Assembly: GCF_036250065.1 (NCBI RefSeq)
Contig: NZ_CP109199.1
Coordinates: forward strand, 5,766,001-5,830,000
Length of the DNA: 64,000 nt
Origin: Micromonospora sp. NBC_01699
Lineage (GTDB): Bacteria; Actinomycetota; Actinomycetes; Mycobacteriales; Micromonosporaceae
Reading direction: 5' to 3'
The translations under genes and the position numbers were made by a program. The notes under the pieces were generated by a model that was given only the letters and a program-made list of their open reading frames with translations, had not been told where the DNA came from and searched no databases. Of this stretch, positions 1 through 4,078 are shown piece by piece. How positions within the stretch are numbered: position 1 is the stretch's first letter; each line of letters opens with the position of its first letter.

Positions 1-150
1 CAGGTAGAGGAAGAGGGCGTCGGTCCGTTCACCGGCCCAGACGTCGCGCAGCGCCGGCCGGGGCCGCAACGGCCGGTACGCCGTCTTGTGCGGGTAGGCG
101 TACAGGTAACCCTGGTACGGCGAGCCGTCCAGCCCGTCCACCCCGTTCAC
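1..150 (-). CDS. STM4012-family radical SAM protein, N-terminal fragment
   Basis: Only the first 50 codons are inside the window; the gene runs off the left edge. It starts with GTG at 150-148, overlapping the TGA of the upstream gene by four bases (GTGA). The visible residues include SPYQGYLYAYPHKTAYRPL, then VWAGE and LFLYL. This is the N-terminal pattern of HemN/HemW-like radical SAM proteins of the STM4012 type, where LFLYLHIPFC leads into the CxxxCxxC cluster site. That site would lie just outside the window, so the radical SAM call rests on the N-terminus and the gene order. It is the fifth gene of the operon that begins at 4078. Confidence 0.72.
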   Translation of the reverse strand, partial: MNGVDGLDGSPYQGYLYAYPHKTAYRPLRPRPALRDVWAGERTDALFLYL

Positions 151-968
151 TCCCAGTCCCCCGGTTTCCCCCACGCGCCCGGCTCCAGCACGAACTGCCC
201 GTACGGCACCGTCCACACCACCTCGTGGCCGAGCCGGTGTCCACTGTGGCCGTCCTCGCCATACGCGGTGCCGTGGTCGGCGCAGAGCACCACCAGGCAG
301 TTGCGGTCGCGGGAGCCGGCCAGGGCGAAGAGCCGGCCGATGTGCCGGTCGACGTACTCCAGGGCGGCGGCGTGACTGTCCCGGCTGTCCCGCTCGGCGC
401 CGGGCAGGTAGTGCCGGTTGGGCTGGTGCATGGCGGCGACGTTGACGAAGAGAAACAGCGGCTGTTCCTCCGGGACGGTCGGTACGACGGTGGCGATCCG
501 GTCGAGCTGCGCCTCGAAGCAGCCCGGTGCGGCCACCCCGAACTCGGGTTCCCAGTGCGCCTCGGCGAACAGCCCCGGCAGCACCGCGCCGAGCGGTGGC
601 TTGCGGTTGAAGAAGCCGACCCCGCCGACGCAGACGGTGTGGTAGCCGGCGGCGGTCAGCCCGGTCACCACGTCCGGGGCGTCGAAGACCCAGGTGTCGT
701 CGCCAGTGCTCTCGCTGCCGGGGAAGGCCGCCGCGAACAGCCGGGGGTGCGGGCCGGGGGTGGTCGGGGTCGGCAGGAAACCGGCGAAGAACGCCTGGTG
801 TGCGGCGTAGGTGAAGCTGGCCGGGCTGTGCCGGCGTTCCCATCCGCCGGGCAGCGCGCGGTGAAGGTTCGGGGTCCGGCCGGTCGCGGCGAGCTCGGTG
901 GCCACGTCGTAGCGCAGCGTGTCCAGGGTGACGAACAGCAGGTCGTGGTTGCCGATCAGGTCCCTCAT
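147..968 (-). CDS. STM4013-family hydrolase, alkaline phosphatase/sulfatase fold
   Basis: 273 aa. The start ATG at 968-966 overlaps the stop of the ATP-grasp gene by four bases. The N-terminus has a metal-site strand (LLFVTLDTLRYDVA, residues 10-23), where an Asp and a Thr sit at the place of the metal ligand and nucleophile of the alkaline phosphatase superfamily. The C-terminal part has a second metal-site pattern (CADHGTAYGEDGHSGHRLGH). There is no C/S-x-P-x-R sulfatase motif, so it is not a formylglycine-dependent sulfatase; a phosphoesterase or phosphotransferase is more likely. No signal peptide is visible, so it should be cytoplasmic. Substrate unknown; gene order places it with the STM4012 radical SAM protein. 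Confidence 0.8.
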   Translation of the reverse strand: MRDLIGNHDLLFVTLDTLRYDVATELAATGRTPNLHRALPGGWERRHSPASFTYAAHQAFFAGFLPTPTTPGPHPRLFAAAFPGSESTGDDTWVFDAPDVVTGLTAAGYHTVCVGGVGFFNRKPPLGAVLPGLFAEAHWEPEFGVAAPGCFEAQLDRIATVVPTVPEEQPLFLFVNVAAMHQPNRHYLPGAERDSRDSHAAALEYVDRHIGRLFALAGSRDRNCLVVLCADHGTAYGEDGHSGHRLGHEVVWTVPYGQFVLEPGAWGKPGDWE

Positions 969-2176
969 CCGACCTGCCCCCTTCCGCCGGTGGCCGACAC
1001 CAGCGGCCGCCGCACCGTCCCGGTCGCCGCCGTCTCTGCCGCCGGGGTGGAACCGATCGGCGTCCGTGGCCGGTCGGTGGACCGTCCGGCCCGCCAGCGG
1101 TCGAAGCGACCACTGGTCAGCGCGTGCAGTTGGGCGGCGTAACTGTCCCGGCCCGCCGGGTCGAGCAGGTTGGGCAGCAGGTCGCCGAACGCGTTCACCT
1201 CGGCCACCATATGCCGCCGCCAGTCGGTGCCGACCATCAGGTCGACCCCGGCGTGCAGGCTGCCGGGAAAGCGGGCGGCCACGCGTACGCAGGTGGAGAG
1301 CACGGCCTCGTACGCCGGTTCTCCCATCGCCGCCCGGACCTCGGCCAGGTCGCCGCGGTCGTTGCCCAGGTGCAGGTTGGTCAGCGGACCGCGACCGGAC
1401 CGGACCACCACGTGCCCCGGCTGCCCGGCCACCACCAGCACCCGCAGGTCGAGGGTCCGCCCGCCCAGCCCGGCCTTGGGAAACCACCGCTCGACCTGGA
1501 GTCCGTCCGGGGCGAGCCGGTCGACGATCGCGGCGACCTCCCGTTCGGTCCGGTAGCGACGCACCCGCAACGAGTTGAACAGCCGACCGTCGGCGGCCAG
1601 CTCGACCGAGGTGGTCGCCTGGACCCGCCCCGGCGCCGTCTCCAGGGCCAGTACGCCGGACGCGGACGACCCGTGCGCCGGCTTCACGAACACCCGCGCC
1701 CAGCCGGCGCCACGCAGCATCGCGCGCAGCTCGCCGTAGTCGCCCGGCGACACCGGCAGGGCCGCCGGCACCGGTACGCCGAACCGGGTCAGCCGGGCGT
1801 GGCAGGCGCGCTTGTCGAACATGACCGCGACATCGGCGGGATCGTTGACCAGGGTCGCGTGCGCGTCCCGTACGGCGGTGGTGAGCCGGTCGAGCGCGGC
1901 CCGCAGGCCGGCGTACCAGGCCGCGGAACCGCCGATCTCGCCGTGCTCGGCCGGGCGGTCGGCGCCGCGCAGCAGCCGGTCGACCTCGGCGTCCTCGCCG
2001 GGTGAGTCGACCCGGACGACCGCGTGGTCGGGCAACCGGACCGGGCCCTCGGCAAGCCGCCGCCAGGGCAGCGTCTCGACCGGGCCGGGCCAGGCGGCTC
2101 CGGCGGCGGCCTGGAACATCCGGACCCGACGGTTGTCCGGGTTGCCGACGACGACCAGCGGCGGCGCGGTGGTCAT
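965..2176 (-). CDS. STM4014-family ATP-grasp protein
   Basis: 403 aa. The N-terminus (APPLVVVGNPDNRRVRMF) looks like a pre-ATP-grasp domain. The central part has ATP-grasp features: a conserved Lys in RVFVKPAHGSSASGV (about residues 160-175), a basic strand LRVLVVAGQPGHVVVRSG, and the acidic metal-binding end HAGVDLMVGTDWRRHMVAEVNAFGD, which resembles the D...E-x-N signature. ATP-grasp enzymes join a carboxylate to an amine or thiol through an acyl phosphate. The substrate is unknown here. It follows the second LRR gene after 31 bases and overlaps the next gene by four. A low-complexity, Arg/Thr-rich tail of about 40 residues follows the fold. Confidence 0.8.
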   Translation of the reverse strand: MTTAPPLVVVGNPDNRRVRMFQAAAGAAWPGPVETLPWRRLAEGPVRLPDHAVVRVDSPGEDAEVDRLLRGADRPAEHGEIGGSAAWYAGLRAALDRLTTAVRDAHATLVNDPADVAVMFDKRACHARLTRFGVPVPAALPVSPGDYGELRAMLRGAGWARVFVKPAHGSSASGVLALETAPGRVQATTSVELAADGRLFNSLRVRRYRTEREVAAIVDRLAPDGLQVERWFPKAGLGGRTLDLRVLVVAGQPGHVVVRSGRGPLTNLHLGNDRGDLAEVRAAMGEPAYEAVLSTCVRVAARFPGSLHAGVDLMVGTDWRRHMVAEVNAFGDLLPNLLDPAGRDSYAAQLHALTSGRFDRWRAGRSTDRPRTPIGSTPAAETAATGTVRRPLVSATGGRGQVG

Positions 2177-2207
2177 CGCTTCCCGGCCCCGGGGTGCGTG
2201 CCGGTGG

Positions 2208-3158
2208 TCATTCGGCCACGGCCACGTAGTACTCGTCCTCGTCGTCGGCGTCGATGCCCTCGGTCAGGTCGACGTCCACACCGGGCAGTTCGGCGACCAG
2301 CCGGGCCGCCAGGTCGTCGGTGACGAAGTGGTGGTTCAGGTCCAGCCGGCGCAGGTGGGTCAGCGGCTGCCCGGCCAGCAGCGCCGCCGCGCCCCGGTCG
2401 CCGAACATGCCCAGCGACAGGTCCAGGGTGTGCAGCCGGGCCACCACCGGCGCCCCGGCCAGCGCCGCCGCCACCTGGTCGGCGATCTCCGCGTCCCGCA
2501 GCCCGAGGTAGGTCAGCGCCGGCAGCCGGGTCCCGGCCAGGATCGGCGCCAAATCCTCCACGGTGGCGTTGCCGCCGTAGTTGTCGGTGCCGAGCCAGAG
2601 CTCCAGGTGGGTCAGGGCGGGCAGGTCGCACTCGCCGACCGCGCGGACCAGCTCGGCGGAGAGCCCACCGGACTCAAACGCCAGCTCCCGCAGCAACCCG
2701 TGGCGGACCGGGCGCAGCCGCACCGGAGCCTTGTGCGGTTCGGAGCCGCGGACCCGGAGCACCTCCAGCGCGGGGTACGCCTCCAGCACCGGGGCCACGT
2801 CCTCCTGCCGGATCCAGGAGATCTCGCACTCCTCGCTCATCATGTCGCCGAGGAAGAGCGCCCGCAGGCCGGTGAGCCGGTCCGCCGCCGCGCAGAGCTG
2901 GGCGTACGGCGGCGTGTTGAACGCGGCGTAGCCCCAGGAACCGAGCACCAGCGCGGTGACCGAGGCCGGGTCGACCGTGTCGAGGAACTGCTCGAACCGC
3001 TGGGCGAAGGCGGGCGAGGGCAGATCCTCGTCCCAGTCTCCGTCGTGCTCGAATGCGATCCGCCAGGCGACCGCCGAGGGGTCGGCCGGTGGCGTCGCTT
3101 CCGGGTCGAACTCGTGCACCGGCAGCCCGGCGAACTCGGTCCGGTGTCGGCCGATCAT
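2208..3158 (-). CDS. STM4015-family leucine-rich-repeat protein, copy B
   Basis: 316 aa. The start ATG at 3158-3156 overlaps the stop of copy A (ATGA). The N-terminal 130 residues have no recognised domain. From about residue 170 the protein is a ribonuclease-inhibitor-like LRR array (ALTHLELWLGTD, ALTYLGLRDAEIAD, RLHTLDLSLGMFGD, HLRRLDLNHHFVTDD) and it ends in an acidic tail (DADDEDEYY). LRR proteins of this type usually bind other proteins, so a scaffold or substrate-recognition role in the operon is plausible but inferred. The LRR half differs from copy A at about 17 of 120 positions, and stretches of over 50 bases are identical including silent sites, so the duplication is recent or kept alike by gene conversion. 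Confidence 0.78.
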   Translation of the reverse strand: MIGRHRTEFAGLPVHEFDPEATPPADPSAVAWRIAFEHDGDWDEDLPSPAFAQRFEQFLDTVDPASVTALVLGSWGYAAFNTPPYAQLCAAADRLTGLRALFLGDMMSEECEISWIRQEDVAPVLEAYPALEVLRVRGSEPHKAPVRLRPVRHGLLRELAFESGGLSAELVRAVGECDLPALTHLELWLGTDNYGGNATVEDLAPILAGTRLPALTYLGLRDAEIADQVAAALAGAPVVARLHTLDLSLGMFGDRGAAALLAGQPLTHLRRLDLNHHFVTDDLAARLVAELPGVDVDLTEGIDADDEDEYYVAVAE

Positions 3159-4078
3159 TCGGCCACGTCCACGTACCGGTCGCCGTCGCGGTCGGCTTCC
3201 TTGGCGTCGGAGAGGTCGATCTCGACCCCGGGCAGCTCCTCGACCAGCCGCGCGGCCAGCTCCGGGCCGACGTAGTGGTGGTGCAGGTCGAGCCGGCGCA
3301 GGTGGGTCAGCGGCTGCCCGGCCAGCAGCGCCGCCGCGCCGACGTCGGACAGGATGCCCAGCGACAGGTCCAGGGTGTGCAGCCGGGCCACCACCGGCGC
3401 CCCGGCCAGCGCCGCCGCCACCGGGTCGGCGATCTCCGCGTCCCGCAGCCCCAGGTAGGTCAGCGCCGGCAACCGGGTCCCGGCCAGGATCGGCGCCAGA
3501 TCGTCCACGGTGGCATCGCCGAGGTATTCGTCGGTGCCGAGCCACAGCTCCAGGTGGGTCAGCGCGGGCAGGTCACACTCGGCGACCGCGCGGACCACCG
3601 TCGCCGGCAGGCCGCCGGACTCGAACGCCAGTTCACGCAGGGCCCGGTGCCGGGTCGGGGTCACCACCAGCCCGTCCGAGCCGCGCACCCGCAGGGTCTC
3701 CAATTCCGGGTACGCGACCAGCAGCGGCGTCACGTCCGTCTGCTTGATCCAGGAGATCTCGGACTCCTCGAAGGTCATCTCGCCGAGGAAGAGCTCCCGC
3801 AGCCCGGTCAACCGCCCGGCCAGTCCCACCAGCAGCTCGACCGGCGCCTCCTCCTCGTACGCGGAGCCCCACTGGCCGATGATCAGGGTCCGGACCGAGG
3901 CCGGTTCGACCTTGGCCAGGAACTGCTCGACCAGGGCGGCGAAGTCCCCGGTGGACGAGTCGTAGTCGGCGGTCAGTCGCCAGGCCACCGTGCTCGGATC
4001 GGCCGGCAGCTCCGCCGCCGGATCGAAGACGATCACCGGCCGGCCGGCGAATTCGGTGAGGTGGGTGTTGATGGTCAT
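3155..4078 (-). CDS. STM4015-family leucine-rich-repeat protein, copy A
   Basis: 307 aa, first gene of the five-gene minus-strand operon. The start was set at ATG 4078-4076 because GGGAG lies about nine bases upstream and residues from MTINTHLTEFAGRPV align with the N-terminus of copy B; an upstream in-frame ATG exists but lacks support. Same layout as copy B: a variable N-terminal half (FDPAAELPADPSTVAWR versus FDPEATPPADPSAVAWR) and a ribonuclease-inhibitor-like LRR half. The tail is again acidic (KEADRDGDRYVDVAE). The variable part is where the two copies could differ in partner. No membrane segment or signal peptide is visible. Confidence 0.78.
   Translation of the reverse strand: MTINTHLTEFAGRPVIVFDPAAELPADPSTVAWRLTADYDSSTGDFAALVEQFLAKVEPASVRTLIIGQWGSAYEEEAPVELLVGLAGRLTGLRELFLGEMTFEESEISWIKQTDVTPLLVAYPELETLRVRGSDGLVVTPTRHRALRELAFESGGLPATVVRAVAECDLPALTHLELWLGTDEYLGDATVDDLAPILAGTRLPALTYLGLRDAEIADPVAAALAGAPVVARLHTLDLSLGILSDVGAAALLAGQPLTHLRRLDLHHHYVGPELAARLVEELPGVEIDLSDAKEADRDGDRYVDVAE

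Follow-up and report, generated by a model that had tools for sequence, protein, structure and literature searches.

A conserved C-terminal glutamate tail in the leucine-rich-repeat proteins of STM4011-STM4015 operons suggests a possible carrier or substrate role

RimK catalyses the C-terminal glutamylation of ribosomal protein S6. In LysW, the C-terminal Glu receives an amine on its gamma-carboxyl through the action of LysX, and in the LysW-related protein ArgW an E54A change results in arginine auxotrophy (PMC10433800). The pearlins 3-thiaglutamate, 3-thiahomoleucine and ammosamide are built at the C-terminus of an encoded carrier and then released, with loading by a tRNA-dependent PEARL and, in the case of 3-thiahomoleucine, with participation of a radical SAM enzyme (PMC9303977). 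Here we analyzed an operon lying at the left edge of a 64,000-nucleotide stretch of Micromonospora sp. NBC_01699 (the window; NZ_CP109199.1, positions 5,766,001 to 5,830,000), in which six minus-strand genes code for two leucine-rich-repeat (LRR) proteins of the STM4015 family (LRR1 and LRR2), the ATP-grasp ligase STM4014, the alkaline-phosphatase (AP)-fold hydrolase STM4013 and the radical SAM proteins STM4012 and STM4011. New here are a C-terminal Glu tail in the LRR proteins, an association of this tail with the ligase, and a linked partner formed by SM and DUF6745; taken together, they make a LysW-like carrier or substrate, predicted to be loaded at its C-terminal Glu, the best explanation for STM4015, in preference to a sensor, and we judge the balance for and against this role to be about even.

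As in LysW/LysX and ArgW/ArgX, an ATP-grasp ligase is here combined with a protein whose short conserved tail (EDWGE in LysW) ends in Glu (PMC10433800), and LysX ranked first, weakly, among solved structures for the STM4014 profile. In contrast, STM4015 is an LRR protein of about 300 amino acids with the ending R[YF]xAVxE whereas LysW is a small zinc-binding protein; no LysZ-, LysY-, LysJ- or LysK-like enzyme occurs among the six operon proteins, which include instead two radical SAM proteins and an AP-fold hydrolase; and the loading of STM4015 is predicted from sequence. Construction at the C-terminus of an encoded carrier followed by release, and the use of radical SAM chemistry, recall the pearlins, but the only ligase seen here is of the ATP-grasp type, and NCBIfam and Pfam named none of the six operon proteins, to which this search was confined, as a PEARL. 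STM4014 resembles RimK in its ATP-grasp nature, whereas it stays far below the RimK cut-off (12.6 bits for the window ligase vs. 143.4 for TIGR00768) and is accompanied by radical SAM enzymes. The NCBIfam models for STM4011 to STM4015 are mostly hypothetical equivalogs whose names tell only the enzyme class. In open-licence PubMed Central no pathway was found for the set, as an initial annotation of this DNA had anticipated, nor anything on DUF6745 in this system, and locus names appeared only incidentally, while one listing was of a paper on Asgard defence systems; the terms leucine, LRR, radical SAM and phosphatase were absent from the accessible part of PMC4431377.

The C-terminal tail was studied in 205 of 206 loci (all but L001, which repeats the window), which provided 262 STM4015 matches; removal of identical C-terminal 150 residues left 223, and exclusion of a single weak match gave 222 proteins from 167 loci. 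Glu was the last residue in 220 of the 222, and the two exceptions (L125 and L160) looked truncated or frame-shifted. The common tail was R-[YF]-[VT]-A-V-[SGA]-E, preceded by a variable acidic linker, with Arg at -7 in 199 proteins, Tyr or Phe at -6 in 177 and 41, respectively, and Val at -3 in 207. Entropy (n = 220) was 0.00 bits at -1, 0.43 at -3 and 0.75-0.90 at -4, -6 and -7, the looser positions being -5 (1.50) and -2 (1.83), and it reached 2.3-3.6 bits in the linker from -8 to -30; a THL landmark, present in 189 proteins, lies at a variable distance of 44 to 81 residues from the C-terminus. A pattern consisting of an aromatic residue at -6, one of a mostly small or hydrophobic residue set at -3 and Glu as the last residue was present in 218 of the 222 proteins, the misses being the two broken proteins and those of Methylobacterium and Salmonella, where the aromatic residue is located one or two places earlier. 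Six proteins, from Salmonella, two Deinococcus, Paenibacillus and Methylobacterium, displayed a looser tail that kept the terminal Glu, and in LRR1 the C-terminal Glu307 was invariant in all 93 aligned sequences. The sample leans to high-scoring matches, and ten extra stretches were considered, two of them from the ligase-less genomes G649 and G713 and eight with a profile match that stopped short of the end; in these eight, STM4015 frames end in Glu save for one frame-broken copy in G481, of which the other frame ends in Glu. The last residues of STM4011, STM4013 and STM4014, used as control, varied. Regarding other weak STM4015 matches (20-26 bits), the frames in G296, G400, G461 (two), G468 and G491 were without the tail, as was a remnant in G423, and the weak matches in G470, G510, G554 and G573 fell outside the tail reading; in G738, a weakly matching LRR-like sequence with the ending FLAVGE was discarded because it is read on the strand opposite to a different probable gene.

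The number of LRR copies varied from one to five in tandem per locus, with up to eight STM4015 matches per genome and some copies off-operon. Mean identity of the LRR bodies was 57% in 63 same-locus pairs, yet these proteins share one tail, which was also kept by six LRR copies without any operon gene in the fetched stretch (among them L102, from the ligase-less genome G615). The initial annotation had taken the two LRR genes of the window as a sign of two recognition targets; since copy number varies while the tail is constant, we rejected two sensors or targets as the leading idea. This fits a single substrate or carrier present in multiple copies better than it fits several sensors, and LRR bodies may also bind partners. 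Many diverged copies with a single tail, some of them off-operon, would suit as well a permanent modification, by which STM4014 and its partners cap the LRR C-termini stably while the LRR bodies do cellular work, in the manner of RimK on S6 and with no small-molecule product. The RimK-type matches of STM4014 point in the same direction, but a simple cap would not need as much as an NPP-like hydrolase and a pair of radical SAM enzymes, and we consider such a modification unlikely.

Presence of the ligase was checked genome-wide in 549 sampled genomes, and not for the public loci. STM4015 (NF038076) was over cut-off in 108 of 300 genomes of the own family of the strain and in 123 of 249 genomes of a second actinobacterial family (231 of 549), and STM4014 (NF038074) in 107 and 117 of the same genome sets, respectively (224 of 549). 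STM4014 was never present without STM4015 (107/107 and 117/117 genomes), and no ligase-only genome appeared among the 549. Conversely, eight genomes harbored a STM4015 relative and no intact STM4014 was found in them. The ordinary tail was kept in two of these (G615 and G718), and in other two (G649 and G371) it was kept with Asp at -2, a variant occurring in 4 of the 222 proteins, and with Glu at the end; the ligase frame of G371 is internally deleted, so the loss of the ligase looks recent. The tail aromatic residue was replaced by His in G599 and by Cys in G713, whose last residue is Asp, and the tail was gone in G727 and G451 (216 bits, below cut-off). Thus, the pattern failed in four of the eight ligase-less genomes vs. 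2 of 218 other intact proteins (those of Salmonella and Methylobacterium), and the terminal Glu was missing in three of the eight vs. none of the 218. This decay of the tail supports, without proving it, a link between tail and ligase.

The initial annotation had proposed to look for a constant partner, and one was found in part: of 127 STM4015-type loci, 82 had SM and DUF6745 in their vicinity, always together, and the remaining 45 were without the pair nearby. Some public loci among these repeat others (at least two), hence they are not all independent, and the counts come from targeted searches, the clustering of neighbours being noisy, with antisense frames merged with DUF6745. The pair was placed on the strand opposite to the operon in 75 of 78 placed cases, at either side, and it was also present in Deinococcus and Methylobacterium. 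Matches to SM above 100 bits were obtained in 63 of the 300 own-family genomes, all 63 STM4015-positive; four more genomes gave weaker matches, one of them STM4015-positive (G569) and three negative (G396 with 77 bits, and G327 and G321 with 30-33 bits). SM was located on a contig other than that of STM4015 in G311, G485, G511 and G519, and tens of kilobases or more away from it in G369 and G481. SM plus DUF6745 is a newly seen linked partner of the operon in many, not all, loci. The last residue was Asp in 81 of 81 distinct SM sequences and Thr in 78 of 81 DUF6745 sequences; judging from its constant ending, SM may likewise act as a tail-type substrate. The genome of the window has another DUF6745 gene, far from this one.

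The ATP-grasp Lys and E-x-N residues of STM4014 were conserved in the alignments. The best matches of its profile in PDB were the LysX structures 1uc8 and 1uc9, with a weak E value (0.0095). All 55 STM4014 members matched NF038074, and at E <= 0.1 they matched rimK_fam (52 members, best 1.6e-7), LysX_arch (45, best 1.1e-7) and MptN (36); in Pfam, matches were to ATPgrasp_ST (44), YheCD (32), ATP-grasp_3 (15) and RimK (4). For STM4013 the best PDB matches were the NPPs 7n1s and 2gsn (E 6.5e-6), with SFTYAAH aligned to SLTFPNH, and its Thr53, which stands at the place of what we take to be the NPP nucleophile, was invariant in 23 of 23 sequences and in six of six aligned across phyla (FTWPSH in Salmonella). 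This likeness to NPP-type enzymes of the AP superfamily sets STM4013 apart from formylglycine sulfatases, since the Cys or Ser of the formylglycine motif was absent from all 23 sequences, in agreement with the initial reading of this hydrolase; maturation of a sulfatase by STM4011 was rejected for the same reason. The STM4012 profile matched HemN (1olt, E 5e-41) and then the methyltransferase NocN (9p2u, 2.3e-26), whereas no PDB relative was recovered by profile for STM4011. A CxxxCxxC motif just left of the window, which the initial annotation had named as the confirmation of its radical SAM call, is indeed there as CEMRCGFC in STM4012 and CNYDCPYC in STM4011. STM4011 carries in addition a CX12GX4C pattern and three further invariant Cys (C205, G218, C223, C247, C252 and C254 in 24 of 24 sequences), which we take to resemble SPASM/twitch domains.

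Two radical SAM enzymes, one of them with this cysteine pattern, multiple precursor-like LRR copies and a tail containing Arg, Tyr or Phe, and Glu would also be consistent with a ribosomally synthesized and post-translationally modified peptide (RiPP), the tail being the core peptide, modified or cross-linked by the radical SAM enzymes and then cut, the LRR protein an outsized leader, and the ATP-grasp bond lying inside the tail. RiPP cores usually vary, whereas this tail is nearly invariant, and the replacement of Tyr by Phe in 41 of 222 proteins leaves no fixed tyrosine chemistry. Moreover, no protease or exporter was found among the six operon proteins (the neighbouring genes were not scanned individually for either), and a RiPP appears to us quite unlikely. 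The broader resemblance to peptide- or natural-product-modifying systems, proposed from the first inspection of the sequence, is supported.

The sequences themselves show the tail, its place at the very C-terminus, its association with STM4014 and the families of the enzymes. If STM4015 acts as a LysW-like carrier or substrate, the LRR domain would be a folded handle whose last residues, R-[YF]-x-A-V-x-E, present the C-terminal Glu. STM4014 would activate a carboxylate of this Glu and attach to it an amine-bearing building block, as LysX does on LysW and RimK on S6; the HemN-like STM4012 and the cysteine-rich STM4011 would next modify the tail or the group tethered to it, and the NPP-like STM4013 would remove or exchange a phospho-ester. 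The finished group would be released or kept as a C-terminal modification, and one enzyme set would serve several LRR copies. At a wider level, we suggest only tentatively that LRR proteins may constitute an additional class of C-terminal carrier, next to the LysW type and the pearlins, in a radical-SAM pathway of Salmonella, actinobacteria, Deinococcus and Paenibacillus that would build a compound held by an amide bond on the terminal Glu of the LRR carrier, with loading by STM4014 and, in many genomes, help from SM and DUF6745.

Several results weigh against the carrier or substrate role. The tail pattern persists in half of the eight genomes in which no intact ligase was found (G615, G718, G649 and G371), five of the eight belong to one genus, and seven of the assemblies are in 100-390 contigs, only G713 being single-contig, so a missing ligase may partly be an assembly gap. 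Within the same genomes STM4013 was whole in G599, split in G615 and a fragment in G718, and it was not found in G649, G713 and G727. Covariation of the tail, calculated from 106 loci, was highest with STM4014 at -2 and -4 and with other operon proteins at -5, -6 and -7, and is thus not discriminating. The link of the ligase to LysX is weak, and its commonest Pfam matches are ATPgrasp_ST and YheCD, few being to RimK. None of the six operon proteins was recognized by NCBIfam as a releasing peptidase. Other proteins besides STM4015 also have a conserved end: in 72 of 79 sequences STM4012 finished with Lys or Arg, and SM and DUF6745 are conserved up to their last residue. Finally, the AlphaFold model of LRR1 had a mean predicted local distance difference test score (pLDDT) of 97.5, and means of 96 and 94 in the last two blocks; a tail modelled with such confidence may pack on the LRR body.

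This high confidence through the tail, the conserved ends of SM and DUF6745 and the persistence of the tail in some ligase-less genomes could likewise be explained by a docking or structural tail, packed on the LRR face or bound to a partner enzyme, with the LRR protein as a scaffold that gathers enzymes or recognizes another substrate. A docking motif need not be exactly C-terminal, however, whereas every unbroken-looking STM4015 ends in Glu after a linker of variable length, and the tail decayed in four of the eight genomes in which no intact ligase was found; we regard docking as improbable. As for the carrier or substrate role, the conserved terminal Glu turns an "unknown function" into a directly testable one, namely modification of this Glu by STM4014. 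If the role is true, LRR proteins would join a short list of biosynthetic handles and the radical-SAM pathway would become tractable; if it is false, the tail still marks the first residue to mutate.

All six proteins scored above the NCBIfam curated cut-offs (275 bits for NF038076, 175 for NF038074, 250 for NF038075, 380 for NF006067 and 200 for NF038073), in the conserved order, which bears out the families assigned initially (radical SAM, AP-fold hydrolase, ATP-grasp and two LRR proteins). In Pfam, radical SAM in STM4012 and sulfatase and phosphodiesterase in STM4013 were above cut-off, whereas the matches to LRR and ATP-grasp, and that of STM4011 to radical SAM, were below. The left edge of the window falls inside STM4012, and the left-flank stretch (L009; window position = L009 position - 10000) completes the operon (Table 1).

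Table 1. Location of the operon genes, the partner genes and the LRR tails (window positions, or positions in L009 where indicated)
Feature	Location	Strand	Details
STM4015-family LRR protein 1 (LRR1), first operon gene	3155..4078	-	307 amino acids; NF038076 368 bits
STM4015-family LRR protein 2 (LRR2)	2208..3158	-	316 amino acids; NF038076 349 bits
STM4014 ATP-grasp ligase	965..2176	-	403 amino acids; NF038074 417 bits; Lys and E-x-N residues kept
STM4013 AP-superfamily hydrolase	147..968	-	273 amino acids; NF038075 403.5 bits; Thr53 at nucleophile place; NPP-like
STM4012 HemN-like radical SAM protein	1..150 in window (N-terminal 50 codons); whole gene L009:8693-10150	-	NF006067 579 bits
STM4011 radical SAM protein, outside window	L009:7806-8696	-	NF038073 402 bits
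SM (106-amino-acid partner), left of window	L009:5981-6301	+	Targeted partner searches
DUF6745 partner, left of window	L009:6301-7794	+	Targeted partner searches
LRR1 C-terminal tail RYVDVAE	3158..3178	-	Tail statistics, per-position entropy
LRR2 C-terminal tail YYVAVAE	2211..2231	-	Tail statistics

Four-base overlaps, initially described as joining all the genes, occur at LRR1/LRR2 (as ATGA), ATP-grasp/hydrolase, hydrolase/STM4012 and STM4012/STM4011 but not at the fifth junction, LRR2/ATP-grasp, where a 31-bp gap is bridged by a 12-codon frame. This frame, at window 2173-2211, shares four bases with the LRR2 stop and four with the ATP-grasp start, which may reflect translational coupling or chance. 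LRR1 and LRR2 are 68% identical, and by eye their C-terminal repeats are near-identical in long DNA stretches (window 2340-2560 and 3290-3500) that look like a recent duplication or gene conversion.

The closest named relatives among the matches listed were Plantactinospora species, with the hydrolase 87-88% identical. STM4015 was present in 6 of 296 genomes sampled across the phylum, and all five families occurred in 72 of the 80 best public STM4013 loci. In a collection of plasmid records, full operons were found in Salmonella, three Deinococcus, Paenibacillus and Methylobacterium, and the order STM4015(n)-4014-4013-4012-4011 is maintained in these four genera. The set of the window is thus an ordinary member of a widespread uncharacterised gene set, with two LRR genes. 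No DNA match to the Salmonella operon was detected in 20,395 Escherichia coli records by megablast, the only search used. A defence system had little support, the PADLOC defence models giving a single partial match (PDC-M51A, 27 bits, residues 158-238 of STM4012).

Some other contexts were observed in individual records. A Salmonella Infantis record labelled as plasmid (L198) holds glnA and typA together with the STM4011-4015 operon, in chromosomal-looking sequence, and there a Cof-type HAD phosphatase gene overlaps STM4011. Two phage-named short records (OR845521.1 and OR850900.1) hold a Salmonella-type STM4013 gene and may be host DNA. Ti plasmids, among them pTi-SAKURA of Agrobacterium (L206), carry a sulfatase-like gene 31% identical to STM4013, the other operon genes not being annotated in the stretch shown. 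In a Streptomyces albidoflavus plasmid (L204) a STM4013 homologue lies in a different context, formed by radical SAM, thymidylate kinase, hypothetical, STM4013 and NUDIX genes, which hints at nucleotide-linked chemistry for the STM4013 family.

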